64,000 nt of DNA from Ranitomeya variabilis (lineage: Eukaryota; Chordata; Amphibia; Anura; Dendrobatidae), in the NCBI RefSeq assembly GCF_051348905.1, contig NC_135236.1, positions 671,389,389-671,453,388 of the forward strand, read 5' to 3'. The notes under the pieces are model-generated. The model worked only from the letters and a program-made list of their open reading frames with translations, was not told where the DNA came from and searched no databases. Positions 11,950 through 60,472 of the stretch are shown one piece after another. The translations under genes and the position numbers were made by a program. How positions within the stretch are numbered: position 1 is the first letter of the stretch; each line of letters starts with the position of its first letter.

Positions 11950-12608
11950 AAACAAGGGTATACCAGCTAAGCGTCTATCCTAAGTTGTCAAAACACTACC
12001 TGAGTCAGAACCGCAGTCATGGGATGAGATGCAACAACTACCTGTCCATGAAAACCTGCCTTGTTAAATGGTGACATTGAAGAGAACATGGACAAGACAC
12101 AACCTGAGGGTTACATCAAAGAGGGTGAAGAGAATCTCATTGACAAACCACTAAAATTCTCTCTATGGTTGTAAACTATTGCCAAGAGCGCGGATCACCA
12201 AAATGAGCAAAGTATTATTGGAAGAAGAATATAAAAGAGGTCAAGCAGATCCATGTATATACAGAAAATGTACAGAAGGAAAGTGGATGTATATTCTCTT
12301 ACATGTGGACGATGTGATTACGGTTCATCAAGAGGAAACGGAAATTGCAAAGATGAATAAAATTCTGAATCAGCATTGGAAATGGGACATCTTATCTAGG
12401 AATCCAGGTCCAAAGAGAAGAAGATGGACGGCTTCTCCTCAACCAAAATGCAAAAATCAACTCAGTTCAGAATCAGATTGGAATGTCAGAAGTCGAAGGT
12501 AAATCAACCCCAAAGGAACCATCCTAGTGACAGACAGGCAGTGAGGGCACGTCTCTACACTGCAACTATGAAGACAGTACAGAGATTAATCCGCTGCCAA
12601 CAATAATA
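11950..12608 (+). mobile_element. Fossil Ty1/copia LTR-retrotransposon fragment (pol, RT region)
   Basis: The stretch near 12.18-12.6 kb translates into a recognisable part of a copia-type reverse transcriptase, and the preceding ~200 bp may belong to the same element. It is a short, broken internal fragment; I found no LTRs at its ends. It sits between the LINE relic and the 31-bp minisatellite. It looks old and non-functional. Confidence 0.75.
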
Positions 12609-16065: not shown

Positions 16066-19000
16066 ATGATGATGACGGCCGCGGAGGGGCTCAAGGGCTA
16101 CAACGACCCGGACAAGTCACTATTCAAGGCAAGTGCTATTCATTCTAGCTAGCCCTCCTGCGTGTGACTCCGTGCTTAAAGGGGAACCCCAACTTTTGAC
16201 ATTGTCTATTAATTTTCAACATCTCCGCTTGCTGTCAGTGAATTGAAAACCGTTCTTCTTTCCATCCCAAACCTCTACAGACTTGATATTTCTCACAGCT
16301 GAGGGTTTGTTACCATTGCATCCAGTGTGAACAGTCCTATGGTAGCTAAACACATCAGCGGTGCTGATAGTTTGTTACAATGTATCAGTGCAGGTAAAAT
16401 GCATCGGCTCACAGCTGAGGGTTTGTGACACTGTCTCGGTGCAGGTAAGAAAGATGTTTTTTTTTTTTTTGTTTCCTATGTCTCTGCTTTCTAGCTTGAA
16501 CAGAACCTAATAGAAGTGTAAGCTCTTGTGCCAGCAGGTGGCGGTATTGCGGCACTATATATATGAAGTCAGGTCCCCTCTATTGTCGTAGTACCGGCCC
16601 TTTAAATATGCTGCTTTATTTTACCATCTCCATTGCCTGAATAGTGATAAAATATGGCCTGCTTATCTTCAGCTCCAGAAAGCCCACCCAACACGGCCCC
16701 CCAGAACTTATTTTTAGGTTTTTTTTCCTAAGTCAATCATTCCTTAAAGGGACGGCGCCAAATTGCTAATTCCTTTTGGATTTGATTTTCTGGGAATGCG
16801 TAAATGTGCGAGACCTACGGATCGGGTTCACAGAAGTGAGGGTAACATTGTGGGGTACAGAGGAGCCCCTCTGCCACATAGGAAGACACCCGTATTATAA
16901 ATGGTACATAACCAATGGGGGCACATTTGTAGATTTTTCTTAGGGGCCGAGATCCTGGATGAGCTCCCTTTAAGAGAGGATTGATCAGTAACCAATATAA
17001 TATTGTAATAAAATAATGCCGCCATCATGTCGTTCCCTTTAAGTGCCTACGACATCTTCTCGCCGCTCCCTAAAATAGTTGTGAATCCTGGGCAATAAAC
17101 AATAATAATTGTGCCATTTGGTATAGTGATGGCGGGCCGTGACTGGGGAGGGGCCGAGCTCTGCTGATTTACATAAGTCTCACACTTCGTCTCCTTCCTT
17201 CATTACTTATTGACTTGTGATGTTGGGAAACCGTCAGACCTCAGTGAGGCGTTGGTCGAGCCGGTGCCTCCTGCCAACCTGGGGATGGGCAGGTAACTCC
17301 GCGGAGCTCAGTCTATCACCTGCAACCAAAGAGATGGAGAAGGAGAGCAGTGGTAACGATGGCGGCGTGGACAACCCCACATTCCAGGTCACAACAACGC
17401 GTCACCAATGTAACATATGGACATTTACTTTCAGGAAAAAGGGGCACTATGTTTATATATTCTGGGAAATTAGGGTCATTGGCCCCTTATGTACCCATCT
17501 AGGGTTTTTATTTATAGGGTTATTCCCAAAATATCAAGTTTTCCCCTTTCCATTGGATTGAATTTTCACTTTTGTAAGGAGACTATATGGCTGCTTTATT
17601 TCGGTACTTTTTGGTCTGCGATGAGTTCACTTTATGGCTGCATTATTTGAACGCTGCATGGTCTGATAAGTGTTCACTGTGTGATACTTTTATATAGCGC
17701 ATTATATAGCTCTATTATTTGGGCACTCTATGGTATCAGTTTGTTTTCACTGTTGTGTACTTTGTAAGGAGACTATATGGCTCCTTTATTTGGGCTCTTT
17801 TTGTTCTGCAATGTGTTCACTATATGGCCGCATTATTTGAACGCTGCATGGTCTGATAAGTGTTCATTGTGTGATACTTTTATATAAGGCATTATATAGC
17901 TGTATTATTTGGGCACTCCATGTATCAGTTTATTTTCACTGTTGGGTACTTTGTAAGGAGACTATATGGCTGCTTTATTTGGGCACTTTTTGTTCTGCAA
18001 TGTGTTCACTATATGGCTGCATTATTTGGACACCACATGGTCTGTTATGTGCTCAATGTGATTCTTTTATGTAGGGCATTATATAACTATTATTTGGACA
18101 CTCTATGGTATCAGTTTGCTTTCACTGTTGGGTACTTTGTAAGGAGACCATATGGCTGCATTTTTTGGATACCACATGGTCTGTTATGTGTTCACTGTGA
18201 TTCTTTTATGTAGGACATTATATAGCTGTATTATTTGGGCACTCTAATGTATCAGTTTGTTTTCACTGTTGGGTACTTTGTAAGAATACTGTATGGCTGT
18301 TTTATTTGAGTACTTTTTGGTGTGCAACTTGTTCACTATTTGGCTGCATTATTTGAACACTACATGGTCTGTTATGTGATCATTTTGTGATACTTTTATA
18401 TAGGGCATTATATAGAGGTATTATTTGGGCACTGTATGGTATCAGTTTGTTTTCACTGTTGGGTACTTTGTAAGGGGACTATATGGCTGCTTTATGTAGG
18501 CACTGTTTGTTTTGTTATGTGTTCAATAGATGGCGGCATTATTTGGGCACTGTGCTTCATCAGAGAAAATAAATTTGCAGGAAACAAGGAATCAGACTGC
18601 GATTTTGCTGAAGAACACGACCATGAATAAAGAATGAGATCTAAGCCTCCCCCAAGAGCAACTTCTCCCAATAATCCAGGAACAATTGGTGATGAACGAG
18701 GCTTTTTCCAGCATGACAGAGACCATGTCATAAGCAAAAAGTGATAATGAAGAGGCTCAGGAAGCAAAACATTGACATTTTGGGTCAATTCTGCAAACAT
18801 TTACAAAAGTCTTGAATGCAGCCTGAAACTGAGGAAGAAAAAAAAGATGCTGCAAAAGCAGATAAACAATACAGAGGAAAAAAAGTCTAAAAGTAAAGGG
18901 TGCACTACAAGAACCAGAGATATAATCGAAAATAAGATTAGTGCAAAACAGAGCTCTTTCCTCTGATCTGGCTATTCTGCACCAGCAGAATAGTGAGTGC

Positions 19001-22000
19001 AGCTCTGGAGTATAATACAGGATGTAACTCAGAATCAGTAATGTAATGTATGTACACAGTGACTGCACCAGCAGAATAGTGAGCGCAGCTCTGGGGTATA
19101 ATACAGGATGTAACTCAGGATCAGTAATGTAATGTATGTACACAGTGACTGAACCAGCAGAATAGTGAGCGCAGCTCTCGGGTATAATACAGGATGTAAC
19201 TCAGGATCAGTAATGTAATGTATGTACACAGTGACTGCACCAGCAGAATAGTGAGTGCAGCTCTGGGGTATAATACAGGATGTAACTCAGGATCATTAAT
19301 GTAATGTATGTACACAGTGACTGCACCAGCAGAATAGTGAGTGCAGCTCTGGGGTATAATACATGATGTAACTCAGGATCAGTAATGTAATGTATGTACA
19401 CAGTGACTGCACCAGCAGAATAGTGAGTGCAGCTCTGGGGAATAATACAGCATGTAACTCAGGATCAGCAATGTAATGTATGTACACAGTGACTGCACCA
19501 GCAGAAGAGTGCAGCTCTGGAGTATAATACAGGAGGTAACTCAGGATCAGTAATGTAATGTATGTACACAGTGACTGCACCAGCAGAATAGTGAGTGCAG
19601 CTCTGGGGGATAATACAGGATGTAACTTAATCTGCTTTTAGCCTATAAAATGCTCATTCATCGGGTAAAATTAACTTTTGAGCAGCATGATAGATCCTTG
19701 TTCTCGGCAGTGCATCATCCTGTGTAAACAAGACTCGCACTGCCAAGCACTATGGCAGCCTGTGCTCGCTGAGGGATCCATCACAGATCACTCTGTGCAC
19801 ATTGTTTACTGCGGTTTTTCTGTATAAATAGACTGTTATGCAACCACCGATCAGTAAAGGTTCACACTGCAGTCAGTTATTGCTGCCGGCTTCTTTCACA
19901 CTTCCGTCGGTACGGGGCCATCACAAAGCGTCGGCGCGACGTACCGACGGACAGTGGTGATTTTTTGCACAACGTGGGCAGCGGACGCAGTGTTTCAACT
20001 CGTCCGCTGCCCATTGTGAAGTCCCAGGGAGGAGGGGGTGGACTTCCGGTGCGCCTGCGCAGTTCAAAATGCAAGACCTGACGTACGAAAAAACGTTCCC
20101 TTGAACGTTTTTTCGCTACGACGGTCCGCCAAATACCGACGCATCCAGTGCACAACGTATGGAACGTGTGGCCATAAGTCGCGATGTGTCGGTAATACAA
20201 GTCTATGGGGAAAAAACGCATCCTGTGGGCAACTTTGCAGTATGCGTTTTTTCTCCAAAACGACGCATTGCGACGGAGGTCAAGCGACGCAAGTGTGAAA
20301 GTAGCCTAAATGGATTTTTACTCCCATATAGAATATGTACAGATCCTGCAATGTGTGAAGTTATTGCACAATGGCCTGGGGCTGGCATGGGGGCTGGCCT
20401 GGGGGCTGGTACAGATTTCGTTTTGATCTGATTAATGCTTCCTGAAATTGTCCCTTGGTGTCAGCTCTGCAATCGTTAATCATTATAATAAACCTCGGAG
20501 CTGGCGCTCCTCACTGCGAATCCTGTGTATCCCGGAGAGGTAACGGGAAGCGCCCATGTCCTACTGCAAAATCTGTCTCTGGCTACACCACCAGCCGAGT
20601 GCCAATATTAGATTCCTACTAGGGATGGGCCCTTTTCACTCCAAGGCCCCAAAAAGCGTTGACTTTTCTGTTACCGGTTAGAGCAGGAAGAGCAGCTCTG
20701 GAGCACAAACTGCAGCTGTAACAAGTAAGAGCGGAATGTTTAGGAATCCGTAAAACACCCACCGAATATGTAATATGGTTCCATTTGGCGCCAGCGGCCC
20801 GTTGACCTCTAATCAAAGTTCCTTCATTTTGACAGGTAGAAGATGTTAATCATTATAACATCACATCTTCATCTGATACAAAACTCCCCGGCCAAGAAAA
20901 GACGAAAATCAGTCAGAGCGACAAGGACAGGAACAAGCTGGCGTATACGGTGACGGACGTGCCCTCCTGGTACTTGTGCATCTTCCTAGGCATTCAGGTA
21001 ATGGGGGTCGACGTTACCCTTAAAATGGTCGACCAAGCCGATGGCGGCCATCTTAGTTGGCAGCCATTTTTCTCATTGACTTTTTTTCTCCCTGCTTTCG
21101 CAGCATTACTTGACCGCCCTCGGAGGGATTGTTGCTATTCCATTGATCCTATCCAAAGACTTGTGCTTGACCTACGACCCCTTGACCCAAAGTCACCTAA
21201 TCAGCACCATCTTTTTCGTCTCTGGGATTTGTACTCTACTGCAGGTTCTCTTCGGGGTCAGGTAAGTTCATAGAAGAGACGGCGCCATCCCTGTCCACGT
21301 ATCATAGCTCTAATCCATTCACTTCAATGGGGCTGAGTTGTAATACCAGAAACAACCCATCGCTAGGGGTGGCGCTATTTGCTAAGGAAAGCGGCCATGT
21401 TTTTTTTTCCAATTCAGGACAACCCCTTTATGACCAAGTCATCTTGGATGGTTTAGGGGACAGGAAACGGGGGCTTTCTGGGCGACAGGCCTCCTTGTTG
21501 GTGGCGTTATGGGGGCGGTTTCGGAAGGCGTTGTCAACTTTGAGCAACTCCACTTGACAGATTATTCAAGAGAAAAGATGTGAAACGCCTTATTGGATTA
21601 TTGGCGGACATGTTTGTTATGTCTTCCCTCCCATCACAACGAATCACAGCGCAGCTTTCATCTTTCCTAAGCCCTCTCAGAAATGAAAGCTGCACCGTGA
21701 TTGGTTGCTATGGACAATCTGCTGACATGATTTGGCGCTCGTTCTGGCATTTTAGTATTTCACTGTTTTACAACCGTAAACATACACACATATATATATT
21801 TTACTCATCAAGTCATAAAAATAGATAAATGACAGATATGTTATGCTGCAAAATAACAAAATGGAGCGTCCTCTTATCTCCTGTTATCTGCTGTGTCTGA
21901 GAGAGACCGTCCTTACAGATATTTAATGTTTCACTCCCCTGGTTTGCCGCAAGGTCATTAACTGATGAAGAAAAATCCGACAAGGAAAAACAGGAGTTAC

Positions 22001-25000
22001 TGGATGACATATTATAGGCCCGAGGCATCAAAAGTGTTGGGAAACTAGGCCTCGTTGCCCATAGCAACCAATAAAAACACAAAATAAAAGCTCAGGTCTG
22101 GTTGCTATGGACAACAAGATCGACTCTTCTGGCCACACCGCTTGCAAACTTTCACCACACCTCCTTCATGCCCCCTTAATATGCGTTCAAGGGACCGCCA
22201 AAGTCTGAAAAACAAAGGTTTCCTGGAAATTTGCTAACTCTCTCCAGGAATCAGGGAGGCCTCAACTTTATCTGGGAGCCTTCATATATCTCAGGAGATT
22301 AGGCAAATATCATGATGTTCCAAAAAATGTCTATACTCAGAATATCTCTTTAAGAAAACAGATAAGTACTGTAGATGTAAAGTAATGTTGGGGTCGCTTA
22401 CCCGATGTTCGGTCTCTTATAGGTTACCAATCTTACAAGGAGGAACTTTTGCCTTCTTGACCCCAACCCTTGCCATGTTATCGCTTCCCAAGTGGAGATG
22501 CCCAGAATGGACCCAAAATGCCAGCCTCGTGAATGCAACGTCGCCAGAATTTGTGGAAGTTTGGCAATCACGGTTACGGGAGGTAATGTGGTATAAGACT
22601 CTGACCAGATGGAAAAATCATGGTCCAAACTGAAAATTTCATGCATTATATCAGATATTATACTCCAGAGCTGCACTCACTATTCTGCTGGTGCAGTCAC
22701 TGTGTACATACATTACATTACTGATCCTGAGTTACATCCTGTATTATACTCCAGAGCTGCACTCACTATTCTGCTGGTGCAGTCACTGTGTACATACATT
22801 ACTGATCCTGAGTTACATCCTGTATTATACTCCGGAGCTGCACTCACTATTCTGCTGGTGCAGTCCTTGTGTACATACATTACTGATCCTGAGTTACATC
22901 CTGTATTATACCCCAGAGCTGCACTCACTATTCTGCTGGTGCAGTCACTGTATACATACATTACTGATCCTGAGTTACATCATGTATTATACCCCAGAGC
23001 TGCACTCACTATTCTGCTGGTGCAGTCACTATGTACATACATTACATTACTGTTCCTGAGTTACCTCCTGTATTATACTCCGGAGCTGCACTCACTATTC
23101 TACTGGTACTTATACATGGCAGCTGTAGATCAGGTACCTCCAGTCAGTAGAGATGGTTGCCAGTCTGCTATACGTTTTCCCTTCTTTAATCATTATGGTA
23201 TTGATCACGCCTCCACCAGTTAGACATACAATGTGAACAGCGTCGTACACCCGCCGTGCAGTAATGGAATTCAGTTATTACAACTAAGGAAACTTGTGAC
23301 AAAGTCCAGAGTCCGTTCTTCAATACGAAAACATCATGAATGATCTTGATATTTCTGTGAGTTTGGTCATCACCGGTCTATAAACACAAGTAATACTAAT
23401 GATTTATTGGGTTCAACGTCCACTAGGCGGCACTAGTGAGAAACTTTTCTTATACGCCGTTAGCTAATTTTTACACTTTTTTTTTCCCCTATGGAATGAT
23501 GCCAATTAGTCTCCATACACAGCCGGACCCTCCCCCAAAGTTGCAGATAAATGTTTCTCCATACGGCGACCACTGAACATCTCCCTCGTTCTGTCTCGTC
23601 TGTTGTTGTCGTTGAGCTTTTGGCTTTTTGTGCAAATTGGGGTCATTTTGTCACTAAACTTTCACGTTGTAGGCAAAATAAAGCGGTACCACTCAGTTTC
23701 ACAGCATAGTGTAAAGCGAGATGGTTTAAATTGGATTCTACAGATGCTGTACTGACATCTAGTGGCCAATGTGAAGACTGCAGCGATTCAAATTTTTCAT
23801 TTTTTTACATATTTATATTATAAATGTAATGTTTTTAAAAAATATATATATATTACATAGACATTTTAATGAACTATATAATCTCCTATTTTTCCAGGTT
23901 CAAGGAGCCATTATGGTCGCGTCCTGCTTCCAAATCCTAGTTGGATTTTCCGGATTGATTGGCTTCCTTATGAGATTCATTGGACCCTTAACGATCGCTC
24001 CTACGATTACGCTCATCGCTCTCCCCCTCTTCGAGTCTGCTGGTAACGACGCGGGAACCCACTGGGGGATATCCATCATGTAAATAACTAAGAAAAAAAA
24101 AATCCAAATAAAATTAAAGATCTGAGCCTGATTTTCAGGTTACTCTGTATTTTATTGTGGAGTTCCCCTTTAAATATTGATTTCTTCACTTCTTGTCTTC
24201 CAGGACAACTTTCTTCATCATATTGTTTTCCCAATACTTACGGAACATTCCTCTCCTTATCCCGTACTACTCAAAAAGTAACCGGAAGTGGCAGTACTCC
24301 AGAACATATGTCTTCCAGATCTTTCCGGTAATGTCTTATGATTTTATCTATACAGCCCAGATTTAAAGGGGTTGTCCATCTCCACCTTTTCCGATAATTT
24401 TTTTTTTCTTCTTAAATACTTTTGGCTAAAAATAATTTTTACCATTAGGTCTCTTTACAAAAAAAAATGCTTTTTATTGTCTCTGAGCTGTACTGTCTAT
24501 CACTGAGTGCAGAATGAGTTAACTGAGGATCCATCAGTGAGCTCATTCTGACAGTCCAATGGGTGTGGATCCATATTCCTTACTTCTTCCATCTTTTCTG
24601 CTTAAGGTTCTTCTTGGCATTTCCATTTCTTGGTTGATCTGTTACATTCTCACCATCACCAATGTCTTCCCAACCAAGCCCGAGACTTATGGGTATTTCG
24701 CTCGTACCGACGTCAAAGGGGATGTCTTGTTTCGGGCTCCGTGGTTCCGCTTTCCGTATCCAGGTAAGAAACATTTCACATGTGTCATGTTTGTGTATTA
24801 TGACGTTCTGCAGCAGCTGAGGTCATATTATTATGACTGCATACACTATATATAACCTATCTTTGACTTCATTGTTAGGTGTACCAGCCTCGCAATGGTG
24901 CGGTGTGGAAATCTTTGATAATTGTACGGCTCTGTGCTCCTGTCTTTTTGCTCCTCATCAGGGCAAGATAAGAAAAATGGCTATATTGAGTCAGGGCTCT

Positions 25001-28000
25001 TTAGGGTGTTTTTTTGGTTCCATTTATCCCATTTCTTTATGATATGACTGGATATCGAGTCTTTTTTTGCCAGGTTTCTTTTCTTAGACCCCTGGTTTTC
25101 ATATCTTGCACTGATGAGGTCTAACAAGCCTGGAACAGACCTCTTCTTCTACTTCTATATGTAAATAGTGGACGGCACAAAACTGAGACTCTAAATTAAT
25201 GGCGTCTCCAGGTGACAAAAAATTATCACCTATTAAGATAAATGACATATAGAATGATGAGGCTTTGACTAATAAAGGAGGTTTTTTGGAGGGAGGGACC
25301 TAGTTAAAGGGCAGCACACTGGTAAAGGGCATTGTTGAGAGTACCTTCTATTAGTCAGTATATGACATCAAACTATGGCAGTCTTTGTCTTTTAGGCCAA
25401 TGGGGTACGCCTACCGTCAGTCTGGAGGGCGTGTTTGGGATCCTGGCCGGAGTCATCTCATCCATGGTGGAGTCGGTGGGTGATTACCATGCGTGCGCAC
25501 GACTTTCTGGGGCACCACCCCCACCGAAGCATGCCATTAACAGAGGAATTGGTATAGAAGGGATCGGTTGCTTACTGGCCGGGGCATGGGGCACCGGGAA
25601 TGGGACCACATCGTACAGTGAGAATGTCGGCGCCCTGGGAATCACAAAGGTAAGTGTTCTCGCACTATTGTTCCGATCCGAATTAGAAATGGAACATTGA
25701 TTCTAAAGAGGAATTCCAACCAGCAACACTGGTCGGTCCGATTGCCAAAAGTGATGACCCCCTAATCATCTTTACTCCAAATTAGAAGACCAAGAGAAGT
25801 TTGGATGGAGTGGTGATCGAGCAAGCAATACGATGTTGATCATTGTCTTCCAGGTTGGGAGCCGGATGGTGATCATTACCGGCGGGGTACTGATGCTCCT
25901 CTTGGGCGTGTTCAGTAAAATCGGTGCTGTTTTTGCTACTATCCCAACTCCGGTGATCGGTGGGATGTTTCTGGTGATGTTTGGAGTAATAGCTGCTGTC
26001 GGGATGTCCAATTTGCAGGTAAATGATATCGCTTTCACATATGGAGGTCAACTGATTTGTTCCCGTATACTCATACACCTTTAGTCTGGTAAGCCAAAAG
26101 TAGCGCCATCTGCAGGAAATAGTCCTAGAGTCATCCAATAGTCTGTAAGTTTGATCCTGCCGTCCTGTTAGTCTGTGTTTCTGTCTCACGCTGTGACTGT
26201 ACATAAATAGCAAAAGGGGCCCTGCACTGTTCCTAGGGCTAGGGCCCTAACTATCCCTGCTCTCAAAGGTACCTCTAAAGGTGAGGAGGCTTGGGTCACC
26301 AGCCTTACTGTTCTCCCCTTCCCCAGGAGGTCTGAGACAGAAATGCTAATGTATAAACGCATAAGACAAACAGAGATAACAGAAGGCAACTAACATATAA
26401 ACACTCACCCAAAGGAAGAAAGGGATAAAGGGATGGATAGAAATGTACAAACCAAATGGGAATAGGACAATGAGGAAAGCATACACCCAAAAACAGCATG
26501 CAACAATCTCCAGCAGCAACGATGACCTCCAACTCAGCACAGAGACTCCAAGGAGCTAGGAAGTAAAACTTTAACTGGCAAGGAAGAGAAGGTCTGGCCA
26601 GATTTTACAGGGAGAGGAAATGACCAGGTCAGGATCAACTGTGAGATGGAGATGCACGTTTCTAACCAGCATAGGATGTGTCGTTAACCTTTTCAGCATG
26701 AAAGAAAATTAAATCCATTGAATATGAAAGACAAACACACAGGCTAAATGGAAGATCTGCGATTCACAATAAATAGTGATCTTCTAACCCCAGATCTCCA
26801 AGGAGGATGTGACATTCTGTCCTCGTCTTTCAGTTATATGACTGCAGGATCCGGCTATACACAAGGTAATAGTTTTTCGAAATTAACATTTTTTGTGTTT
26901 TTATACTCGCAGTACGCTGACATGAATTCCTCCAGGAACATATTCATTATTGGTTTCTCTATATTCTGTGGCCTTTCTATCCCAAACTGGGTGAACAATA
27001 ATGCAGAACTTCTGGAAACCGGTAAGAAGCAAAAGCTGACAATCGCTGTTTTTGAGGTGGCCATGCATGTTCATTCAATTAATATATACTCTCCCCCAAC
27101 CAGCAGTGTTGCGTAAAAAGAAAGGTTGAACATGTTGGATGTCAACATGCTCCATCCTTTTTTTCTCATGGGGGAGGATTAGCCATCCGAGGTGTCTCGC
27201 AACGTCATACTCTTTTCCTAGAGAACATGTGCATGATGGGCTGAAGAGGAGGTGGGGTTGAAAAAAAAAAGAATCTTGGCTATGGGTTCAGTCCACGTCA
27301 GTGCCCTTGTTCATTAATTTTTTGGGGGGATATGGTCTTAATTCCATGGTAGACTACCTTACAGAGTATGGCAAAAAAGACTGGCTCCGTCGAAAAGAAG
27401 ATAAACTGGAGTGTAAAGTTTCATCTTTTGGACTTCAATTTCGTAAACCCCGTCTTTCGGTAAATATAGTGGAAGTCCCTGACAAAGTCAGAAATGGGAG
27501 AATTGTCACGGTCTGAACCTGACCTAAGGTGTATGGGCGCCGTCACGTTTGGGATTGAATTGAACCCTACTGAATGAGTCCAGAATGGGGACATTCTCTT
27601 TTCCTTCTGTTGGGGTTCCAGGGCAATTTGTTGTTACATCAAGTAGAGTCAGATACGTCGATTACTTCTTATATTTCCATTTTTGACACAGGTATTCTTC
27701 AACTAGACCAAATCATCATGGTGCTGTTGACCACGGGAATGTTCGTCGGCGGGTTCCTTGGATTTTTCCTAGACAACACCATACCAGGTAATGATGGTCA
27801 TCAAGCTAGAATGATCTCCAGAAGAGAAGATAGTCTATCTAAAACATGGACAACATCTAATACTGGGCAATCCATACTGTTTTTTTCTTCTTTCGATATA
27901 TTCTCCTTTTCCTTCTCCACCATTTTTCCTCGAAACAAAGAATTTAGTAACAAGAGTCAAAGATGTTGGTTGTCAACACAATATAATATATGGAGGGTGT

Positions 28001-31109: not shown

Positions 31110-32289
31110 GGATGGGAAAATTATAACAGTATAAAAACCGGTATTACTTCAAGACGTTGGCCAGAATTACTTTACTGGCGCTAATTGTTAGACAATATTA
31201 CTGTATGGGGCCAATTGGGGGATAAAAAAAAAAAAAAAAGTAAACACAAAATTCAAAATAAAAGTATTAAAAAATAAACGAAAAATATTTGACCACTAAA
31301 AATGCTGTTTCTATTGATCCCAGCTATAAAACTGTACCTTAACCCATACTATGAATGTCATGAAAAAAAACGGCAAAAATGTTTAAAAAAAAAAATCAAA
31401 AAGGTGAATAGAAAAAATAGGCGACTACTAAAAATGTCCTCTCTTGGGGAACATATAGCTTCACAGTCCATTTCCATTCTTTGCAGGAATGACAGGATGT
31501 GGGTGATTGCAGAAGTCGACTTTTTCGCACCGGATCTAGTAAAAGTCCATTATAAAACAATAATCTCGGAACATTTCCTCAATAAATAGATTTTATTATA
31601 ATATGTAACAAAGTGTGAACGAGACAACACGAAAAAAAAACCATCACAAATATTTAAGATCGTCGCTCCCCAGACATCACAAATCTTGCTTACAGTTTCT
31701 TTTTGGGGTGAAAAGATGGATGACTGATCTGGGTTCCTACCCAGCTTTTCCAGACTCTGAAAGGCAAATCTGCCTACTTGTGCAGCATTAATTTTTTTAA
31801 AATATTTTTAGGGGGAGTGATTAAAATACTGAACATTAATAACAGTGTAACAAATATAAACTTTTTTTTTTAATAAATATTTATCTTAAAAGTTTTTCTT
31901 ATTTTTCCCATAAATCACAAAAATAATCCGATCTCCAATAATAATAAATAATAATAATACTCTTTAACTGACCGACAACTACAGGGACGCATGTGACGGA
32001 TGGTTGTCGGAGGTCATGTGACCGGATTCCGTCCTTCTCCATGTTCTTTTAACCCTTGCATTTCCCGCTCACACTGGCTATACGCTGTGGGGTATTTGGC
32101 GCAATGTCTGCCTCTAGGAAAGCCGGGCGATAACGGATACGAATCCCCGGACAGAGGTCGTCACTCGGCTTTCCCAGATAAATTATATAACTAAGAAATA
32201 AGCGAACTTCCCCAAGACGATGGACGGAAACGTTGACCTATTCAGGAGGCAGAAGTGGCAAACAGTACGGGACGGCGGCGCAGCGATCC
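31110..32289. other. AT-rich space between convergent SLC23A4 and STRA8
   Basis: No coding sequence was seen. AATAAA on the plus strand (31581-31586) and TTTATT (AATAAA on the minus strand, about 31592-31597) lie about 10 bp apart and could serve as poly(A) signals for the two convergent genes. The region is AT-rich, so chance occurrence is likely enough to keep this tentative. Confidence 0.35.
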
Positions 32290-35200
32290 TCAGAGGTCGT
32301 CCAAGTCATCGAAGTTCTCTGTGCATCTCAGCATCAGCGTCTCGTAATCGTACTGCGGAGCGGAGGCCTAAATAACAGAAAGGAAGCGTTATATTCCTGT
32401 ATGAGTCACGGGCACTGCGCCGGCCACACTGACACCCCACTATACACACCCCTACCTGCGGGCAAAGAGAGAACTTCCTCCTCAAGAAATCAGAGACATA
32501 TTGGTGCAGCTGCTCCTCACCTTGTGGACTGCTCCATAGGGAAACGTCAGGTGTAGGACTGCTGCAACGCGAGAAACCAGGTGTCGTAGGTTACCGGCTG
32601 CATTATACCCCAGAGCTGCACTCACTATTCTGCTGGTGCAGTCACTGTGTACATACATTACATTACTGATCCTGAGTTACATCCTGTATTATACTCCAGA
32701 GCTGCACTCACTATTCTGCTGGTGCAGTCACTGTGCACATACATTACATTACTGATCCTGAGTTACATCCTGTATTATACCCCAGAGCTGCACTCACTAT
32801 TCTGCTGGTGCAATCACTGTGTACATACATTACATTACTGATCCTGAGTTACCTCCTGTATTATACCCCAGAGCTGCACTCACTATTCTGCTGGTGCAGT
32901 CACTGTGTACATACATTACTGATCCTGAGTTACATCCTGTATTATACCCCAGAGCTGCACTCACTATTCTGCTGGTGCAGTCACTGTGTACATACATTAC
33001 ATTACTGATCCTGAGTTACATCCTGTATTATACCCCAGAGCTGCACTCACTATTCTGCTGGTGCAGTCCCTGTGTACATACATTACATTACTGATCCTGA
33101 GTTACCTCCTGTATTATACCCCAGAGCTGCACTCACTATTCTGCTGGTGCAGTCACTGTGTACATACATTACATTACTGATCCTGAGTTACATCCTGTAT
33201 TATACCCCAGAGCTGCACTCACTATTCTGCTGGTGCAGTAACTTTATACATAATTACTTTTTGTTTGATTTTAAGAGGTAAACGAAAGACAAATGCACTT
33301 GTATTGCAGGGGCTGTTGCAGCTTTGGCTGTGATTGGAGTAAGGCTTGTGTCCCCCACGTTCCTCATACACCTGGGCTCCACGTCTGCAGTGATGGCGTC
33401 TTACCCCGGGCTGGACGTCATCCGGTTAGCTCCTTGATCTAGAAATACAGCCGCCAATTCGAACGCATCGTCCAACAGGATCTAAAGACAGAAAAGGGAA
33501 GCGATGATCAGCGGCGGACGAGGAGTCTCCCCGGAGCCCGACCACCTCCATCACTCACATCTTCAGGGGTGGAGGACAGGAACGAGCTGGTGGCCTCCTG
33601 ACTCTCCGCCCCGCTGTCTCTTATGCGCCCATTGGGGCAGCTGGTGTCCGGGGAGGAGAAGGAGCACGAGGCGGCGGTCCGGTCTTGGGAAAAGTAATTC
33701 TGATAATTGTTGGTTTTCCCGCTCTGGAGAAGCTCCTGCCACAGATTGGAGATGGCCTTGGACACCACAGGAAGCGTGACCTGCGCCTGAGACACCACCC
33801 TGCTCTCCACCAGAAGGTCCACCGTCTGCTTGTAGAAGCGCAGATACCTGAGGGGAAATATATATATTTGTGATATAGAGCGCAGCTCCGGAGTATAATA
33901 CAGGAATGTAATGTATGTACACAGTGACTGCACCAGCAGAATAGTGAGTGCAGCTCTGGGGTATAATACAGGATGCAACTCAGGATCAGTAATGTAATGT
34001 ATGTACACAGTGACTGCACCAGCAGAATAGTGAGTGCAGCTCTGGGGTATAATACAGGATGTAACTCAGGATCAGTAATGTAATGTATGTACACAGTGAC
34101 TGCACCAGCAGAACAGTGAGTGCAGCTCTGGGGTATAATACAGGAGGTAACTCAGGATCAGTAATGTAATGTATGTACACAGTGACTGCACCAGCAGAAT
34201 AGTGAGTGCAGCTCTGGGGTATAATACAGGATGTAACTCAGGATCAGTAATGTAATGTATGTACACAGTGACTGCACCAGCAGAATAGTGAGTGCAGCTC
34301 TGGAGTATAATACAGGATGTAACTCAGGATCAGTAATGTAATGTATGTACACAGTGACTGCCCCAGCAGAGTAGTGAGTGCAGCTCTGGAGTATAATACA
34401 GCTGCTTTACATACTGTAAATGATACTTACTTTTCGAATTCCATCAGCTCTGGTGAGGAAAAAGGCTCTCCAGTATTTTCGATTTTCAATTCTTCCACTG
34501 TTTCATCCAGGTCTTCTTGAATTTCCGGTTGCATGTACAGGAGCACAGGGTCGATGTTATCGATATCCACAGGGTCAGCAGTGGGGCCTCTAACATTGAA
34601 ATTATAAGTTTGTGAAAGGTCAGTGGCAAAACAAAACCTCACAGTGGGTTGTACTCAATGTGTCCTCCTTTATTTTCTGTCGTATGACATCTTTTAAAAG
34701 GTGACCAACATCCGGGACACCCCTCTATCATCCAGAATGGAGAGCAACCAAAAAAAATAGCCTCCTGTCCATACATTACTCTGGTGGCCAAATGGGTTGC
34801 ATTAGTCTCTGTCACTTACCCCTCCTCGCTACTGACCAGCTGTAAGAATTCCTCCCTGACGTCCTCCAGGGTGTAGGGGGCGCTGTGCTCCAGGAAAATG
34901 TCAGCTGAGGGACAAGGCGGCCACATTATAACACACCGGGCCATGGCACATGCACCAATCAACCATTGCATTAACATTAACCCCTTAAAGACTGGGACAA
35001 TTTTCATTTTTGCGCTTTTCCTTTTTTCCTCTCCTTCTTCCAAGAGCCATAACTTTTTTTTTTCACTTCTAATATACTTTTTTAACACTTTATTTCTTTT
35101 TGTATGGGTGATTCCAATTTTTATGTTTTCTTAATTTTTTTATAAATATTTTTAAAACCTTTTTTTTTATTACTATATATATTTTTTTTAATTTTCCTTT

Positions 35201-36192
35201 TTGATCTCTTGTACTATATAAAATATTTTGTAATCATGTCCAAGCCACAGCGCCAAGATGGTGGCGAGACCTTAATATATCTGCACCCTCCTTATGATGT
35301 ACGGTCACATCCCGGGGAATGTAAAAAAACAATGAAAAATTGCTAAATACATCTATTTTTTATTCCTGACACTTTGCTCTATTGGGTGTATATATACAGA
35401 GCTGGGATCACAAAAAAAAAAAAAGAATTGCTATTTTCAGAAAAAAAAAAAAAAAATGATTAAAAGTCATGTCCCCAGGGTCAGCACTGGGGCCTCTAAC
35501 ATTGTTTTTGTTTTTTTTTAAATACTGTAGCTGATCATCTATATTTTTCAGTCTCCACAATATTTTTTTTGTTATTACGGAAAAACAAAAAATAAAAAAT
35601 ATATAAAAACTTGGTATCAAGTTTTGGATGTCTCCAATGAAAACATCAATTTAACCTGCAAATTAAATAATCTGTCCTGTCGCTATGTCAACTTAAAAAA
35701 AAAATTAAAATTAAATTAATATAAAAATAAAAGTTCTGGCGACTCAAAAAGTTTTCTAGTTTTAATAGTACAAAAAAAAAAAAAAAAAGGTTCCCCCCCC
35801 CCAAAAAAAATAAAAAATAAGAAAACGTTGTGTCCTGCTTCAATCTTTGTACGCTCACCTTTCATTTTCAGCAGGGAGTCCAGAGTGCTCTCCAGCTGCA
35901 GGATGTACTGCTTCGCCTGCTGCAGAACCTCTTTCTGGATTATGAGAAATGTCCATAAAACAACACATCACAATTGAGGTGGGGGGTGTGAATTGCGCCC
36001 TAGGGCGAGGAATCTTTGCTCCCCTACCCTGGTGGCTTTTGTATCGGGTTCGGGGAACACGAGGTCCCGTAGTTTCTGGATGAGCTGCGGGACAGATGTG
36101 GAGCTCGGGGTTCTCGCTTTCCGCTTTCTCGCTGCTGGTCTCTTGCCGCTGTTTCTCCCTTTTTGGCTGCCGCCTTCACCTGCCGCGTCCAT
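32290..36192 (-). CDS. STRA8: Stimulated by retinoic acid 8 homologue, regulator of meiotic entry (8 exons, 344 aa)
   Basis: Minus-strand coding exons in transcript order: 36192-36028, 35934-35859, 34904-34820, 34589-34431, 33847-33559, 33481-33405, 32561-32456, 32367-32290. All have AG/GT borders and phases that agree (1035 nt, 344 residues plus stop). The start ATG has an in-frame TGA 24 bases upstream. Recognisable parts against mouse STRA8 as remembered: a basic stretch (KRPAARKRKAR) and HLH-like helices (VPQLIQKLRDLVFPEPD; VLQQAKQYILQLESTLDSLL), TLEDVREEFLQLVSS, the conserved C-terminal block LMEFEKYLRFYKQTVDLL with LPVVSKAISNLWQELL, ESQEATSSFLSSTPEDILLD, and the ending LRCTENFDDLDDL. 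The long acidic run of mouse STRA8 is much shorter here. In mice STRA8 acts in the germ-cell nucleus with MEIOSIN to switch on meiotic genes after retinoic acid. Position head to head with WDR91 supports orthology. Confidence 0.93.
32601..33245 (+). repeat. 86-bp minisatellite array C (STRA8 intron 6)
   Basis: About 7.5 copies of the 86-bp unit, plus orientation and so antisense to STRA8. It ends where the repeat decays into TAACTTTATACATAATTAC. It lies between STRA8 exons 7 and 6 and is inverted relative to array D in intron 4. Confidence 0.95.
33878..34402 (-). repeat. 86-bp minisatellite array D (STRA8 intron 4)
   Basis: About 6 copies of the same 86-bp unit in minus orientation, beginning about 30 bp from the exon 5 acceptor (33848) and ending about 30 bp from the exon 4 donor. 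Almost the whole intron is repeat. Array C on the other side of exons 5-6 is its reverse complement. Confidence 0.95.
34975..35850. repeat. AT-rich, repeat-like filler of STRA8 intron 2
   Basis: Long A and T runs alternate with segments such as CTTCCAAGAGCCATAACTTT, which also appears in similar form near 43.54 kb (TTCTTCCACAAGCTATAACC). This points to a dispersed element family shared by the two sites. A copy of GTCAGCACTGGGGCCTCTAACATTG near 35480 repeats the 5' edge of exon 4 (34575-34597) but is not in a coding context. Confidence 0.5.
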
Positions 36193-36590
36193 CCAGACCG
36201 CACACGTCCTTCATGTATATCTGGATCAAATGATAACACATAGCATAGTACACCGGAATCCATTCCTTACTAAAGGGGCGGAGCTTGTGTTATGCCCCGC
36301 CCACTTGTCACTTGCCGCTTACCTAAGAGTAATCCTTTAACCCGTTAGTGAATGGCACATAAGAATGTCTATGACAGCTGACTGTGGTCAGGATCAGAGA
36401 TATCTCCAATCCCAGTCATTTAACCCCCTTAGATGCAGCTGTGAAAACCAACTGCAGCATCTAAGCGGTTAGACGGGCGGAAGAAGTTTTGTGTCGCCTC
36501 ATAAGCCCCTGACAGGGTACGGGGACCTAATAATGCCAGAATAGGCCATCTTTTACCTATTCTGATCTGTGAGAGGCATAATATACAAGT
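36193..36590. promoter_or_regulatory. Sequence just upstream of the STRA8 start; two GC boxes
   Basis: GGGGCGGAGC (about 36275) and GCCCCGCCCAC (about 36293) lie 80-110 bp upstream of the ATG on the STRA8 side. No retinoic-acid response element (paired AGGTCA-type half sites) was found in about 400 bp. Sequence after 36340 looks like dispersed repeat. The transcription start may lie further upstream. Confidence 0.35.
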
Positions 36591-36911: not shown

Positions 36912-37714
36912 GAAAAAACTGGCCTCAGTGACTGGGGGTAACCTCAATGACATCACCGCCGGTCACTGACACTCAGTCACCAGTCTCCATTACTAAGCCG
37001 TGGGCTTGATGTCACCAGTCAATATAAAGGTGACATCAACCCCACAAATATGAACCCCACTTGCTACTGATACAGGGCAAGTGGGAAGAGCGAGGCTAAG
37101 TGCCAGAATTGACGGGTCTAATAGATGCGCCTTTTCTAGGAGGCTGCAGGCTGCTTTATTTAGGATGTGGGAGCCAATATCCATGGCCCCTTACCAGCCT
37201 GAGAATACCAGCCCCCTGCTGTCTGCTTTAGCTTGGCTGGTTATCAAAAATGGGGGGAGACCCCACACCATTTTTTAAAATTATTTAACTAATTTAAAAA
37301 ATCAGTGTGGGGACCCCTCTATTCTTGATAACCAGCCTTGTTGAAGCTGACAGCTGAAGGTTGCATCCCGCAGCTGTCAGTTTTGCCTGGCTGGTTATCA
37401 ATAATACAAAGGAACCCCACATCATTTTTGTAAAATTATTTAATGCGCAGGCGACGGCTCCATCAGCTACCGCCTGCTCTCGCTGTTATCAGTTGAATAC
37501 AACTCTCAACATTCTTCCCTGCAAGTGCGAGCAGTGGGCGGTGATGTGAGCCGTCTTCAGCACCCGGCGCCGGGGAACAGCACGAACAGGACAGCTGATT
37601 CCCAGGCGCCGATATGTGTGATACTGATACGGCACAAGTATTAAACACACAGACACGGACATCTCCAGTACTGGTTTTCACAGTAGCGGAAATATCAGGA
37701 CGTGCAATGAGCCC
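36912..37714. mobile_element. Dispersed repeat copy inserted in the A-rich array
   Basis: This block separates two stretches of the same A-rich repeat. Its part at about 37070-37140, read in reverse, matches 63836-63900 near the window end (shared AAGTGCCAGAAT, GTGGGAAGAG and GCGCCTTTT pieces), so it belongs to a dispersed family. Two copies of a GCTGGTTATCAA(A/T)AAT motif lie inside. No ORF and no clear terminal repeats. Confidence 0.6.
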
Positions 37715-46938: not shown

Positions 46939-49900
46939 ATGACGTCGGCGGTGGAGCGCACTGATGACCTGGTGCGGGAGTACCTGACCTTCAGGGGCTT
47001 CACCAACACCTTGAAGCATTTTGAGGCGGATATTAAAGTAGATAAGGAGAAAGGTTTCCGTGTAAGTTACAGTCTGGGCTTTTCCTTGTCTTATCGTTCT
47101 ATAGGTTCTTTTACATTTCCTGTCACTTGCACTTAATATTTTTTTTTAACCTGGTGTAAATGCCTCCGTCCTCCTGAATCCGGCGATGTTTTTTTTTTCT
47201 TTCTGCGCCTCTCCAATCCTGAGAAACGGCCCCTTTTCCCTGTATATAAATCTGGCCTTATAAGGCAAGTGGGCGTGATTCCTGACACTTCTCTTAGGGC
47301 CACACCCACATTTGTACCAAGACGCGATTTAAATACTGGTAAGAGGAGGCCGTATCTCAGGAACGGAGAGGCGCAGGAACAAAATAAAAACATCTCCGGA
47401 TTCAGGAGAACAGTGACATTTCCACAGGGTAAATAATTAAATATTTATGGCAAGTGACAGGTCCTCCTTAAAGGGGAGGTCAAGTCAAAATTACTATATA
47501 TAAAAGCTTTATCACATGCTTTTTGAGCAGTGGTTGATTCATTGACTTTACTATCCACCCTGTCCCTCAAGATCCTTCATGTGCCTGGACCCAGTCTTGA
47601 GAAAACACCACATAATGGAGCCAGATGGGATCTTGATGTAGTTCGCCTGTAAACCTAATCATTTTACGTCCCATTGCTTCATTTATCTTCCATTAATCTG
47701 GTATTTAATTGTCCATAAAGGTTTGCAAAATCTGTAATTGCTGCAGTATAAAGTATGGGGGAGGGACATGGCACCTGGTCAAATATGACTTTTTTTTTTC
47801 TTAAGGTGGATCGCATTGTGGAGCAATTACTGCAGTTTATCCAGAGTTATGACCTGAACGGGCTGGTGGATTATTGGAGTTACCTGGAGCGGCGGCTCTT
47901 CAGCCGATTGGAAGACGTCTATCGGCCGACGGTTATCAAGCTGAAGACCAGCCTGTTCCGCTATTACCTGGTGTGCACCATACAGGTACGGGGCTGGACA
48001 CATATTCCTTAATCCTCCTAAGACGCTTTGCTGTAGGCTGTAAAGTGAGACTTTTTTTAAACCTGTCTGTAGTTGCGCCACTTTGGCCACTAGGTGTCAG
48101 CGGCGTACAACTGTTAATCCCTCCGTACGTAATATTATATTACAGAGCAGCCGGACGGACAAAGCGCACGACTTCTTCCAGAAGCAGGCGCCGGAGCTGC
48201 AGAACCAGGCCGAATGGAAGGAATGGTTCGCTCTTCCTTTTCTTCCTGCGCCCGACGTCAACCCGACCTTCTCCACGTACTTCTCCCGGCAGTGGGCAGA
48301 CACCTTCACCGTGTCTCTGCACAACTTCCTCAGCGTCCTCTTCCAGTGCATGCATATCCTTATCGGGAAAGCAAAATGTAGGGTGCAAGATAAACTCTCC
48401 CGAAATCAGCAATTCTGCAGATCCCCCAGTATTCCTGCTTGTTCAGTGTCTATGGATACAAATATACAAATCCCCCAGTATTCCTGCTTGTTCAGTGTCT
48501 GCGGATACAAATATGCAGATCCCCCAGTATTCCTGCTTGTTCAGGGTCTGCACATTGAATGTCATGTTGTGTAATGTAACAGACTCCCACAATGCCGTTT
48601 GTACCTTGGTAAAACGAACCTGTTAAATCCAAAATTTAGCTTTGGGACCGAAAAGAGAAGAAAAACATAATATAATGTAAAACCAGTACAGAATGTTCCA
48701 TATTGTATGAATTAGAAATGTAATGATGTAAGTTTATTAGAAACTGAGTTTTCCTTTAACTTTATCCTGCACCTATCCCAACTATCCTGAACTTTGATGC
48801 AGAATGTCAGAGAATCTTCCATGTCCAAGAGGAGAACGAGGCGCTGAGACAGAAGGTGGGTGAGGAGGAGCGAAAGAAGGGCGAGGGCCAGGGTCTAGAG
48901 GGAAATGTTACTTTTTTTTTCTCTTCTTCTTTCCATGATTACTTCATCTGTTGTTTTCTTAGCTCTTTGCTCTTCAGGCAGAGGCGCACCGGCTGAAAAA
49001 AGAAGGTGAAGATGGCCCTATGGTTCACCATAAGCTGCCGCACTACGTCTCCAACATGGATCGTCTGGGAGACTCCGAGCTGTGAGTGACTTCAGGACAA
49101 CACCAATACATATAACTGCTGTAATACTGCCCCTATGTACAAGAATACAACTACTATAATACTGCCCTCTATGTACAAGAATATAACTACTATAATACTG
49201 CCCCCTATGTACAACAATATAACTACTATAATACTGCTCCCTATGTACAAGAATATAACTACTATAATACTGCTCCTATGCACAAGAATATAACTACTAT
49301 AATACTGCCCCTATGTACAAGAATATAACTACTATAATACTGTCCCTATGTACAAGAATATAACTACTATAATACTGCCCCTATGTACAAGAATATAACT
49401 ACTATAATACTGCTCCCTATGTACAAGAATATAACTACTATAATACTGCCCCTATGTACAAGAATATAACTACTATAATACTGCCCCCTATGTACAAGAA
49501 TATAACTACTATAATACTGCCCCCTATGTACAAGAATATAACTACTATAATACTGCCCCTATGTACAAGAATATAACTACTATAATACTGCCCCCTATGT
49601 ACAAGAATATAACTACTATAATACTGCCCCCTATGTACAAGAATATAACTACTATAATACTGCTCCTATGTACAAGAATATAACTACTATAATACTGCCC
49701 CTATGTACAAGAATATAACTACTATAATACTGCCCCCTATGTACAAGAATATAACTACTATAATACTGCTCCTATGTACAAGAATATAACTACTATAATA
49801 CTGCCCCCTATGTACAAGAATATAACTACTATAATACTGCCCCTATGTACAAGAATATAACTACTATAATACTGCTCCTATGTACAAGAATATAACTACT

Positions 49901-52900
49901 ATAATACTGCCCCTATGTACAGGAATATAACTACTATAATACTGCCCCCTATGTACGGTAATATAACTACTATAATACTGCCCCTATGTACAAGAATATA
50001 ACTACTATAATACTGCCCCTATGTACAGGAATATAACTACTATAATACTGCCTCTATGTACAGGAATATAACTGCTATAATACTGCTGTGACGGTAATGT
50101 TGTGCTCACATTCGCAGTACCATGATCTCCAGTCAGAGGACCTCCGGATCCGCTGTCCAGTCCCAGAAGACCACCGGGTTCCTCTCCTCTTTGCTGCCAC
50201 AGAGTAAGAAGGTAGTCCCCAAGCCTCCCCAGGCCGCCATCTCCTCTCCGACACAGAGCGCCGCTGTTCTTCCCCTGAAGAAAGATCCGGGGAACAGTCA
50301 GGTATAGATTTGCCATTTGTGTCCGGACTGTGATCTCGGCCTCTTTGTAGCCTGACATGGCTGATAACAGAGAACAATACTAATTAAATGTTTCTTTTTT
50401 CAGGCCCAGAAAACGAAAGAGACCCTGTGTGTGACTAAGGAAGTGAAGAGTGTGACCAGTGTCCTCGGCGCCCCGGCCGTCACTGAGGTCAGTATGGTGC
50501 AGCAGAGGCAGCGGCGCCTCCAGGAGAGGAAGGAGCTGTTCTCCAAGACGCAGTCACAGGTGAGGAGACATTTACGAAAAGAGGGAATGAGACTCTTAAT
50601 GGGGGAGGGACGTGGACAGGTCGGCTTTGAAGGACTATTGAATTGAATTTGGGCAAGTCTGAGCCTAGAAAGAGCATTCTAGAGAGCAGGGGCAGCACGA
50701 GAGGAAACCTGAAAATGTGAATTTGTGTCGTCTCTTACAGCAAAGCCTGGACAAGAAGTCGGAGACATCAGACACCGAGTCCGAGCTTCGCCCCGAGACG
50801 CCGCATGACCCGGTGGACGCTCTGACGAGAGGGGTGAAGGGGGTCTCGTCAGGCGGAGGAGGGGAGAAAGCGGAGCAGCCGTTCATCGTGCTCAGCCAGG
50901 ACGAGTATGGAGAGCACCACTCCTCCATCATGCACTGCAGGTCCTCAGGACTTCCTGATACACTGTAACAAACTGTCAGCAGCGGACGGAGGTTTATGGG
51001 TGGTCGCGCTGACTCCGCTGTTGTCTTGCCTTCCAGGGTCGACTGCTCGGGCCGACGTGTCGCCAGCCTGGACGTGGACGGGGTTATCAAGGTTTGGTCC
51101 ATCGACGGTATCATGCAGACCAAGGCGTCGGCCATATCCAAATCTGCGCTCCTGTCCCTGGAGTGGGCGACTAAGCGGGACAGACTGGTGAGTACGGGCA
51201 GCGTACAGGGGGCCCGCACCCGCGGAGACCACGTCACCACTATGTTCTTCTCCCCGAGCGCAGCTCTTGCTGGGCAGTGAGGTCGGCACCGTTCGCCTGT
51301 ATGACACCGAAGCCAAGAAAAACCTCTGCGAGATCGGGATCTGTGACGACATGCCGAGGTGAGCGCCGCCCGACGGGGGTCCGGGATCACGGACCTGTGC
51401 GGTATGTGACACCGAGGGTCTCTGCGCTCCTAGGATCCTCTCACTGGCCTGTAACCCCAGCGGGACGTCCTTCGTGTGCTCAGCCGCAGCGCCATCATCG
51501 GCCCCAGAGCTTCCCATCCCCGGGACAGGAGAGAACGGCGGCAACCAAGTGCCGGGACGACTGCTACTGTGGGACACCAAGACCATGAAACAGCAAGTAA
51601 GGAGCCTGGTAAAGTGTTACTCCAGAGCTGCACTCACTATTCTGCTGGTGCAGTCACTGTGTACATACATTACATTACTGATCCGGAGTTACATCCTGTA
51701 TTATACTCCAGAGCTGCACTCACTATTCTGCTGGTGCAGTCACTGTGTACATACGTTACATTACTGATCCTGAGTTACCTCCTGTATTATACCCCAGAGC
51801 TGCACTCACTATTCTGCTGGTGCAGTCACTGTGTACATACGTTACATTACTGATCCTGAGTTACCTCCTGTATTATACCCCAGAGCTGCACTCACTATTC
51901 TGCTGGTGCAGTCACTGTGTACATACATTACATTACTGATCCTGATTACACCCTGTATTATACCCCAGAGCTGCACTCACTATTCTGCTGGTGCAGTCAC
52001 TGTGTACATACATTACATTACTGATCCTGATTACACCCTGTATTATACCCCAGAGCTGCACTCACTATTCTGCTGGTGCAGTCACTGTGTACATACATTA
52101 CATTACTGATCCTGAGTTACCTCCTGTATTATACTCCAGAGCTGCACTCACTATTCTGCTGGTGCAGTCACTGTGTACATACATTACATTACTGATCCTG
52201 AGTAACGTCCTGTATTATACTCCAGAGCTGCACTCACTATTCTGCTGGTGCAGTCACTGTGTACATACATTACATTACTGATCCTGAGTTACCTCCTGTA
52301 TTATACCCCAGAGCTGCACTCACTATTCTGCTGGTGCAGTCACTGTGTACATACATTACATTACTGATCCTGAGTTACATCCTGTATTATACTCCAGAGC
52401 TGCACTCACTATTCTGCTGGTGCAGTCACTGTGTACATACATTACATTACTGATCCTGAGTTACGTCCTGTATTATACCCCAGAGCTGCACTCACTATTC
52501 TGCTGGTGCAGTCACTGTGTACATACATTACATTACTGATCCTGAGTTACATCCTGTATTATACTCCAGAGCTGCACTCACTATTCTGCTGGTGCAGTCA
52601 CTGTGTACATACATTACATTACTGATCCTGAGTTACATCCTGTATTATACCCCAGAGCTGCACTCACTATTCTGCTGGTGCAGTCACTGTGTACATACAT
52701 TACTGATCCTGAGTTATATCCTGTATTATACCCCAGAGCTGCACTCACTATTCTGCTGGTGCAGTCACTGTGTACATACATTACATTACTGATCCTGAGT
52801 TACATCCTGTATTATACTCCAGAGCTGCACTCACTATTCTGCTGGTGCAGTCACTGTGTACATACATTACATTATTACGTCCCCGTTTTTCCCTCCACAG

Positions 52901-54827
52901 CTGCAGTTCTCTCTGGAGCCCGTTCCCATCGCTGTGAACTGCACCTCATTCAACCATAACGGCAATCTTCTGGTGACCGGTGCCGCTGACGGTGTGATCC
53001 GGCTCTTTGGTAAGTGGCGCAGTGTGTGGTGTTCTATTTCCTTCTCATCAGTAGAGGGCGCTGTCTTTCTTGGTTTTTTCCTCTTCATGCTCGGGTGCAC
53101 TGTCCCTTTAAGTGGCGTGTCCTTGTGCATGCTGGCCGTACAGTCGGTGTCTTTGCTCCGCAGACATGCAGCAGCACCAGTGTGCGATGAGCTGGGAGGC
53201 GCACCGCGGGGAGGTGTACTCTGTAGACTTCAGCTACGATGAGAACGCCGTGTACAGCATCGGAGAGGACGGGAAGGTGAGCGGCGCCTGCTGGGGGTTG
53301 TAGTCCTATCCTGCGCTGTCCTATAACTGCAGGCTCTGACTACACAGGTTTTTTTGTTGTCTGTTACCATGGATACACATAGATCTGCACAGGAGCTGCA
53401 TACACAAAACGAGTATCACTGTATTTTAATGAGGACGAGTCGCTAAGTTGCGTTTTCCATATAAACGCGTCTGAACACTGTCCCCGGCTGATCGCTAAGT
53501 GTCCGGCCTCCACCGGCTGCTGACGGTTTCCGCTTCCTGACGTCGGGGAATAACATTTTTTTTTTCTCCCCAGTTTATTCAGTGGAACATTCACAAGAGC
53601 GGCCAGAAGGTGTCGGAGTACTCGCTGCCCCCCGACGCCACGGGGCCCTTCATGCTGTCCGGCTACTCGGGCTACAAACAGGTGCAGTTTCCTCGCGGAC
53701 GACTCTTCGCTTTCGACTCGGAAGGAAACTACATGCTGACGTGCTCCGGCACCGGCGGGGTCATATACAAGGTGAGAGGGTCCGAGGATCGCGGCCGGGA
53801 GCATGTGCGGTACCCACGGGGTGTGAGAGCAAAGCCGTATAGTCTCCTCACACGCTGATGTAGCAGAGCCGACTGTGCCGCTCTCTGGTCCCTATAGTCT
53901 CCTCACGCCGGTGTAGCAGAGCCGACTGTGCCGCTCTCTGGTCCCTATAGTCTCCTCACACGCCGGTTCAGCAGAGCCGACTGTGCCGCTCTCTGGTCCC
54001 TATAGACTCCTCACACGCCGGTGTAGCAGAGCCGACGGTGCCGCTCTCTGGTCCCTATAGTCTCCTCACACGCCGGTGTAGCAGAGCCGACTGTGCTGCT
54101 CTCTGGTCCCTATAGTCTCCTCACACGCCGGTTCAGCAGAGCCGACTGTGCCGCTCTCTGGTCCCTATAGTCTCGTCACACGCCGGTGTAGCAGAGCCGA
54201 CTGTGCTGCTCTCTATAGTCTCGTCACACGCCGGTGTAGCAGAGCCGACTGTGCTGCTCTCTGCTCCCTATAGTCTCCTCACACGCCGGTGTAGCAGAGC
54301 CGACGGTGCCGCTCTCTGGTCCCTATAGTCTCCTCACACGCCGGTGTAGCAGAGCCGACGGTGCCGCTCTCTGGTCCCTATAGTCTCCTCACACGCCGGT
54401 GTAGCAGAGCCGACTGTGCTGCTCTCTGGTTCCTATAGACTCCTCACGCTGGTGTAGCAGAGCCGACTGTGCCCCTCTTTGCTCCGTATATACTCCTCAG
54501 ACGCCAGTGTAGCAGAGCCGACTGTGACGCTTTTTGCTTTGTATAGACGCCGGTGTAGCAGAGCCGACTGTGCCGCTTTTTGCTCTGTATAGACGCTGGT
54601 GTAGCAGAGCCGACTGTGCTGCTCTTCGTGCTCCGTCCTCACGCTTTGCTCTCCGTTTCCTGCAGCTGAACAGTGACGGCAGCACGCTGGAGAACTGTCT
54701 GTCCCTCGGGGGGCACCGGGCCCCGGTGGTCACTGTGGACTGGAGCACGGCCGTGGAATGTGGCACCTGCTTAACGGCCTCCATGGACGGAAAAATCCGG
54801 CTGACGACCCTGCTGGCCCAGAAATAG
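46939..54827 (+). CDS. WDR91: WD repeat-containing protein 91 (15 coding exons, 747 aa)
   Basis: Coding exons: 46939-47061, 47806-47985, 48146-48353, 48773-48855, 48963-49081, 50118-50301, 50404-50559, 50741-50940, 51037-51187, 51264-51358, 51434-51596, 52901-53009, 53164-53276, 53574-53771, 54666-54827. They sum to 2244 nt, 747 residues, the length I recall for human WDR91. The N-terminal half ([55 protein letters not shown]) is the helical and coiled-coil part, the middle is a low-complexity linker, and from [20 protein letters not shown] onwards comes the WD40 propeller ([26 protein letters not shown] blades). WDR91 binds active RAB7 and, with WDR81, limits Beclin-1/PI3-kinase activity during conversion of early to late endosomes. 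Intron 3 is U12-type (ATATCCTT...AC). Introns 5, 11 and 14 hold minisatellites. Confidence 0.98.
48354..48772 (+). other. U12-type AT-AC intron of WDR91 (intron 3)
   Basis: The intron opens with ATATCCTTAT, the minor-spliceosome 5' splice site, has TTCCTTTAAC as branch site with its adenosine about 13 bases from the end, and ends in TGCAC. No AG acceptor lies where the protein demands the join. Splicing here gives [15 protein letters not shown], colinear with human [15 protein letters not shown]. Confidence 0.88.
48418..48550. repeat. Short tandem repeat, ~58 bp, 2-3 copies (WDR91 intron 3)
   Basis: CCCCCAGTATTCCTGCTTGT followed by TCAGTGTCT(A/G) and GGATACAAATATGCAGAT recurs three times inside the U12 intron. 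Confidence 0.85.
49095..50092. repeat. Minisatellite, 35-36-bp unit, ~28 copies (WDR91 intron 5)
   Basis: The unit is CTATGTACAAGAATATAACT, ACTATAATACTGCCC, with one extra C in some units. It starts 15 bases after the exon 5 donor and ends about 25 bases before the exon 6 acceptor, so it fills the intron. Confidence 0.95.
51617..52876 (+). repeat. 86-bp minisatellite array E (WDR91 intron 11)
   Basis: About 14-15 copies of the 86-bp unit in sense orientation. It begins about 20 bases after the exon 11 donor and ends about 25 bases before the exon 12 acceptor. A few units carry GATTACACCCTG instead of GAGTTACATCCTG; one unit lacks ACATT. Confidence 0.95.
53835..54640. repeat. Minisatellite, ~55-bp unit, ~14 copies (WDR91 intron 14)
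   Basis: The unit contains CCTATAGTCTCCTCACACGC, CGGTGTAGCAGAGCCGACTG and TGCCGCTCTCTGGTC. Later units (after 54.43 kb) are shorter and more diverged. GC-rich, with an AGCAGAGCCGACTGTG core. Confidence 0.93.
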
Positions 54828-60289: not shown

Positions 60290-60472
60290 CCCCGTAAGTC
60301 TGATGTGTTAGTTGCTTTGTCAACCAAGAAAAAATGGGACAGTTCTCAATGAAGAGCACAACTGACAAGGGTGGAGACTAATGGGAGTATTCCCTCCGCC
60401 CAACCTCCCATTTCGCAGAGGCACAAAAAAAAAAAAAGACTTCCTGTCTGGGTTCTCTTCCTCTTGTCAGCC

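Follow-up and report, generated by a model that had tools for sequence, protein, structure and literature searches.

The 64,000-nucleotide stretch of DNA analyzed here (the window) carries on its minus strand a complete STRA8 gene model, probably from a frog, that keeps a candidate RB-binding motif. In germ cells, STRA8 is the protein that initiates meiosis. We hold with high confidence that we are dealing with an ordinary STRA8 ortholog that is intact and whose host is most likely an anuran. Its bHLH domain and LxCxE motif together suggest that both the bHLH arm and the RB arm of the mechanism described in mouse could operate in frogs. The gene does not overturn an accepted loss, frog stra8 being already on record.

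The STRA8 gene model

We rebuilt STRA8 from the sequence as eight exons on the minus strand at 32290–36192, with GT..AG borders in seven of seven introns. The joined reading frame spans 1035 nt and encodes 344 aa followed by a TGA stop, with zero internal stops, while the remaining two frames of the joined sequence contain 10 and 12 stops. An open frame as long as this one would arise by chance at the same base composition with a probability of about 1e-6. Codon composition was also coding-like, with G+C-rich third positions and A-rich second positions. The original prediction had described eight in-phase minus-strand exons giving 344 residues, free of stops and with a stated C terminus; our reconstruction reproduced its coordinates, exon count, length and C terminus.

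All exons lie on the minus strand. Coding exon 1 (165 nt, aa 1–55) occupies 36028–36192 and begins with the start ATG at 36192. It is followed by exon 2 (76 nt, aa 56–81) at 35859–35934, with donor GTGAGC and acceptor CCAG, and by exon 3 (85 nt, aa 81–109) at 34820–34904, with donor GTAAGT and acceptor TCAG. Exon 4 (159 nt, aa 109–162) lies at 34431–34589, and its 5′ border falls inside a stretch that is near-copied in intron 2. Exon 5, the longest at 289 nt (33559–33847, aa 162–258), contains the residues YKQTVD, which are matched by a Xenopus laevis stra8 reverse primer. The joined reading frame then runs through exon 6 (77 nt, aa 259–284) at 33405–33481, exon 7 (106 nt, aa 284–319) at 32456–32561 and exon 8 (78 nt, aa 320–344 and the TGA stop) at 32290–32367. 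A candidate polyadenylation signal, AATAAA, is found on the same strand at 31592–31597, about 690 nt 3′ of the stop. At the other end of the gene, an in-frame TGA at 36211–36213 lies seven codons 5′ of the ATG and therefore fixes the start, barring another acceptor inside those codons. Intron lengths range from about 0.08 to 1 kb; salamander introns are very large, and those of STRA8 in the window are far smaller.

Protein identity and predicted function

The encoded protein matches the Pfam family bHLH_STRA8 (PF23175) over aa 21–82, at 31.4 bits (E = 2.1e-7) and from profile position 17 of 80. This score passes the curated cut-off of the family (25 bits), so that the identification as STRA8 rests on an independent model; counting against it, the match starts partway into the profile and clears the cut-off by only 6 bits. 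Including introns, the domain extends over 34900–36132 on the minus strand, in exons 1–3. The general HLH model of Pfam scored slightly under its own cut-off, which might be expected of a divergent bHLH, and a sequence search of the PDB returned weak bHLH matches only (ID2, E = 0.14).

Near the other end of the protein, the residues LRCTE (aa 332–336; 32317–32331, minus strand) match the LxCxE motif and form a candidate RB-binding site eight residues before the C terminus. An LxCxE within the last 20 residues occurred in 0.175% of shuffled versions of the protein. A C-terminal RB-binding motif of this type has been described as conserved across vertebrate STRA8 homologs, and in mouse STRA8 it reads LKCLE and binds RB1 and p107 (PMC10600341). 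The mouse protein and the one encoded here thus have in common a STRA8-type bHLH (Pfam) and a C-terminal LxCxE. They differ in that mouse STRA8 has 393 aa, ends in the coding exon numbered 9 and carries LKCLE, whereas the gene in the window has eight coding exons, encodes 344 aa and carries LRCTE (PMC10600341).

If the protein works as its mouse counterpart does, its N-terminal bHLH region would form a pair with MEIOSIN that turns on meiotic genes, and RB or p107 would be bound through the C-terminal LxCxE, allowing germ cells to pass G1/S at the onset of meiosis (PMC10600341). Judged from its sequence, the ortholog is probably functional; we infer its expression in germ cells, its partner binding and its function. 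We scanned 3 kb upstream of the gene for retinoic-acid response elements and found a single DR2-like site, near 39059, where chance alone would give 0.49. No element above chance was found in these 3 kb, a scan in which a distal or degenerate site may be missed. Retinoic-acid control of the gene is neither supported nor excluded by this result. Also upstream of STRA8, ARAGORN called a tRNA-Lys (anticodon ttt) at 37238–37330 on the minus strand; Rfam gave no tRNA there, and the call is probably false.

The border of exon 4

Intron 2 contains a near-copy, identical at 33 of 36 positions, of a 36-bp stretch that takes in the acceptor of exon 4 together with the first 27 nt of that exon. The two members of the pair lie on the minus strand at 34563–34598 and 35469–35504. 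The window holds no further copy, and none of this kind would be expected by chance. From its sequence, the near-copy in intron 2 could act as a cryptic acceptor. The border of exon 4 is the least certain part of the gene model because its acceptor has this near-copy.

This observation bears on a different reading of the locus, in which STRA8 is a recently silenced copy, still open and unexpressed, or in which exon 4 uses another border. Such a reading would draw on the near-copied acceptor and on the 86-bp tandem arrays that introns 4 and 6 carry in opposite orientations. Every splice site and the full reading frame are nevertheless intact, and the functional motif LxCxE has been kept, and we regard a silenced copy or a displaced border as unlikely. 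An intact ortholog remains the reading that we prefer.

Gene neighborhood

STRA8 is flanked by WDR91 and by an SLC23 gene, both on the plus strand. WDR91 is the usual neighbor of STRA8 in tetrapods. Its exons were located at 48044–53858, with a CTLH_Armc9 domain at 48044–48574 and matches to WDR91 structures in the PDB at 50969–51280 and 53541–53858. On the other side, exons of an SLC23-type transporter were located at 23775–26084 by the Pfam domain Xan_ur_permease on four open frames; for one of these frames the best PDB match, among solved structures, was SLC23A1 at moderate identity. The original prediction had placed STRA8 between SLC23A4 and WDR91. The WDR91 side of this placement was borne out, and on the SLC23 side the assignment held at the level of the family.

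These neighbors fit a tetrapod. In the text of a 2019 study, which does not name the neighboring genes, the surroundings of stra8 are presented as well conserved among tetrapods, with Xenopus tropicalis among the species drawn, and there only certain fish are treated as lacking the gene (PMC6365411). The same text describes stra8 in gar as present without the tetrapod synteny (PMC6365411).

Two other features were seen at a distance from STRA8 on the plus strand. An open frame at 60353–61699 consists of a single exon and encodes a TRIM-like product of 448 aa in which RING and B-box domains are present, and a fragment of a Ty1/copia-type reverse transcriptase lies at 12155–12502 (Pfam RVT_2, 33.2 bits against a cut-off of 31.6). 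The Ty1/copia fragment speaks against a mammalian or avian host, the short STRA8 introns against a salamander, and the lack of tetrapod synteny around gar stra8 against a non-tetrapod fish. We therefore consider it unlikely that the host is a different amphibian or a reptile, in which case the gene would tell us nothing about frogs.

stra8 in frogs and other amphibians

The original prediction had described stra8 as missing from Xenopus and thought to be lost in anurans. This is contradicted by two studies of Xenopus and by the text of the synteny study (PMC4821358, PMC12758760, PMC6365411). In 2016, stra8 was measured by RT-qPCR in the gonads of X. laevis with primers designed on sequence common to two stra8 cDNAs (PMC4821358), and in 2026 stra8 was among 90 sex-related genes analyzed in Xenopus (PMC12758760). 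An intact STRA8 in a frog is therefore unsurprising, since stra8 transcripts had already been measured in X. laevis in 2016. Our literature search found no report of stra8 loss in frogs; it covered subscription papers poorly, and an older report may exist.

We compared the gene with X. laevis stra8 through primer sequences only. The reverse primer matched exon 5 at 16 of 20 bases and in frame, so that YQQTMD in X. laevis corresponds to YKQTVD here; when the codons were shuffled, 0.15% of the resulting sequences matched as well as this, and when the residues were shuffled, 0.05% did. The forward primer had no significant placement on the STRA8 gene, its best order-consistent site being YMQPEI at aa 127. 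Among salamanders, the newt Cynops orientalis expresses stra8 in the gonads of both sexes, and the paper reporting this describes absence of the gene for several teleost lineages only and does not claim a loss in anurans (PMC7096497). The newt gene is an amphibian stra8, as the gene in the window most likely is, and comes from a salamander (PMC7096497).

These records leave room for a narrower proposal, that retention of stra8 is patchy in anurans other than Xenopus and that the host lineage kept a complete, RB-binding form; we consider it very improbable. That stra8 was instead lost from Xenopus, and perhaps from most frogs, with the host an exceptional frog that kept it, is hardly credible: its one source is the original prediction, even if older reports may have missed the gene, and it conflicts with the two cDNAs measured in X. 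laevis, one primer for which maps to a conserved stretch of STRA8 (PMC4821358), with the presence of X. laevis stra8 in a later gene set (PMC12758760) and with the conserved tetrapod neighborhood, X. tropicalis included, in the text of the synteny study (PMC6365411).

Repeats in the window

Besides these genes, the window contains two families of tandem repeats. Arrays of an 86-bp family were found at 18977–19627, 22656–23107, 32598–33257, 33901–34401 and 51618–52874. Within STRA8 they occupy introns 4 and 6, in opposite orientations; others lie between exons of WDR91 and within or close to the SLC23 gene. Searches with a 72-mer of this repeat in genome contigs, a 62-mer in viral contigs and a 22-mer in both returned no match, and neither did shorter pieces of it in the texts of papers. 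A separate 6.2-kb array at 3563–9750 consists of 137 copies of a 45-bp unit that are 93% alike; it is open in several frames on both strands and so gives rise to long spurious ORFs.
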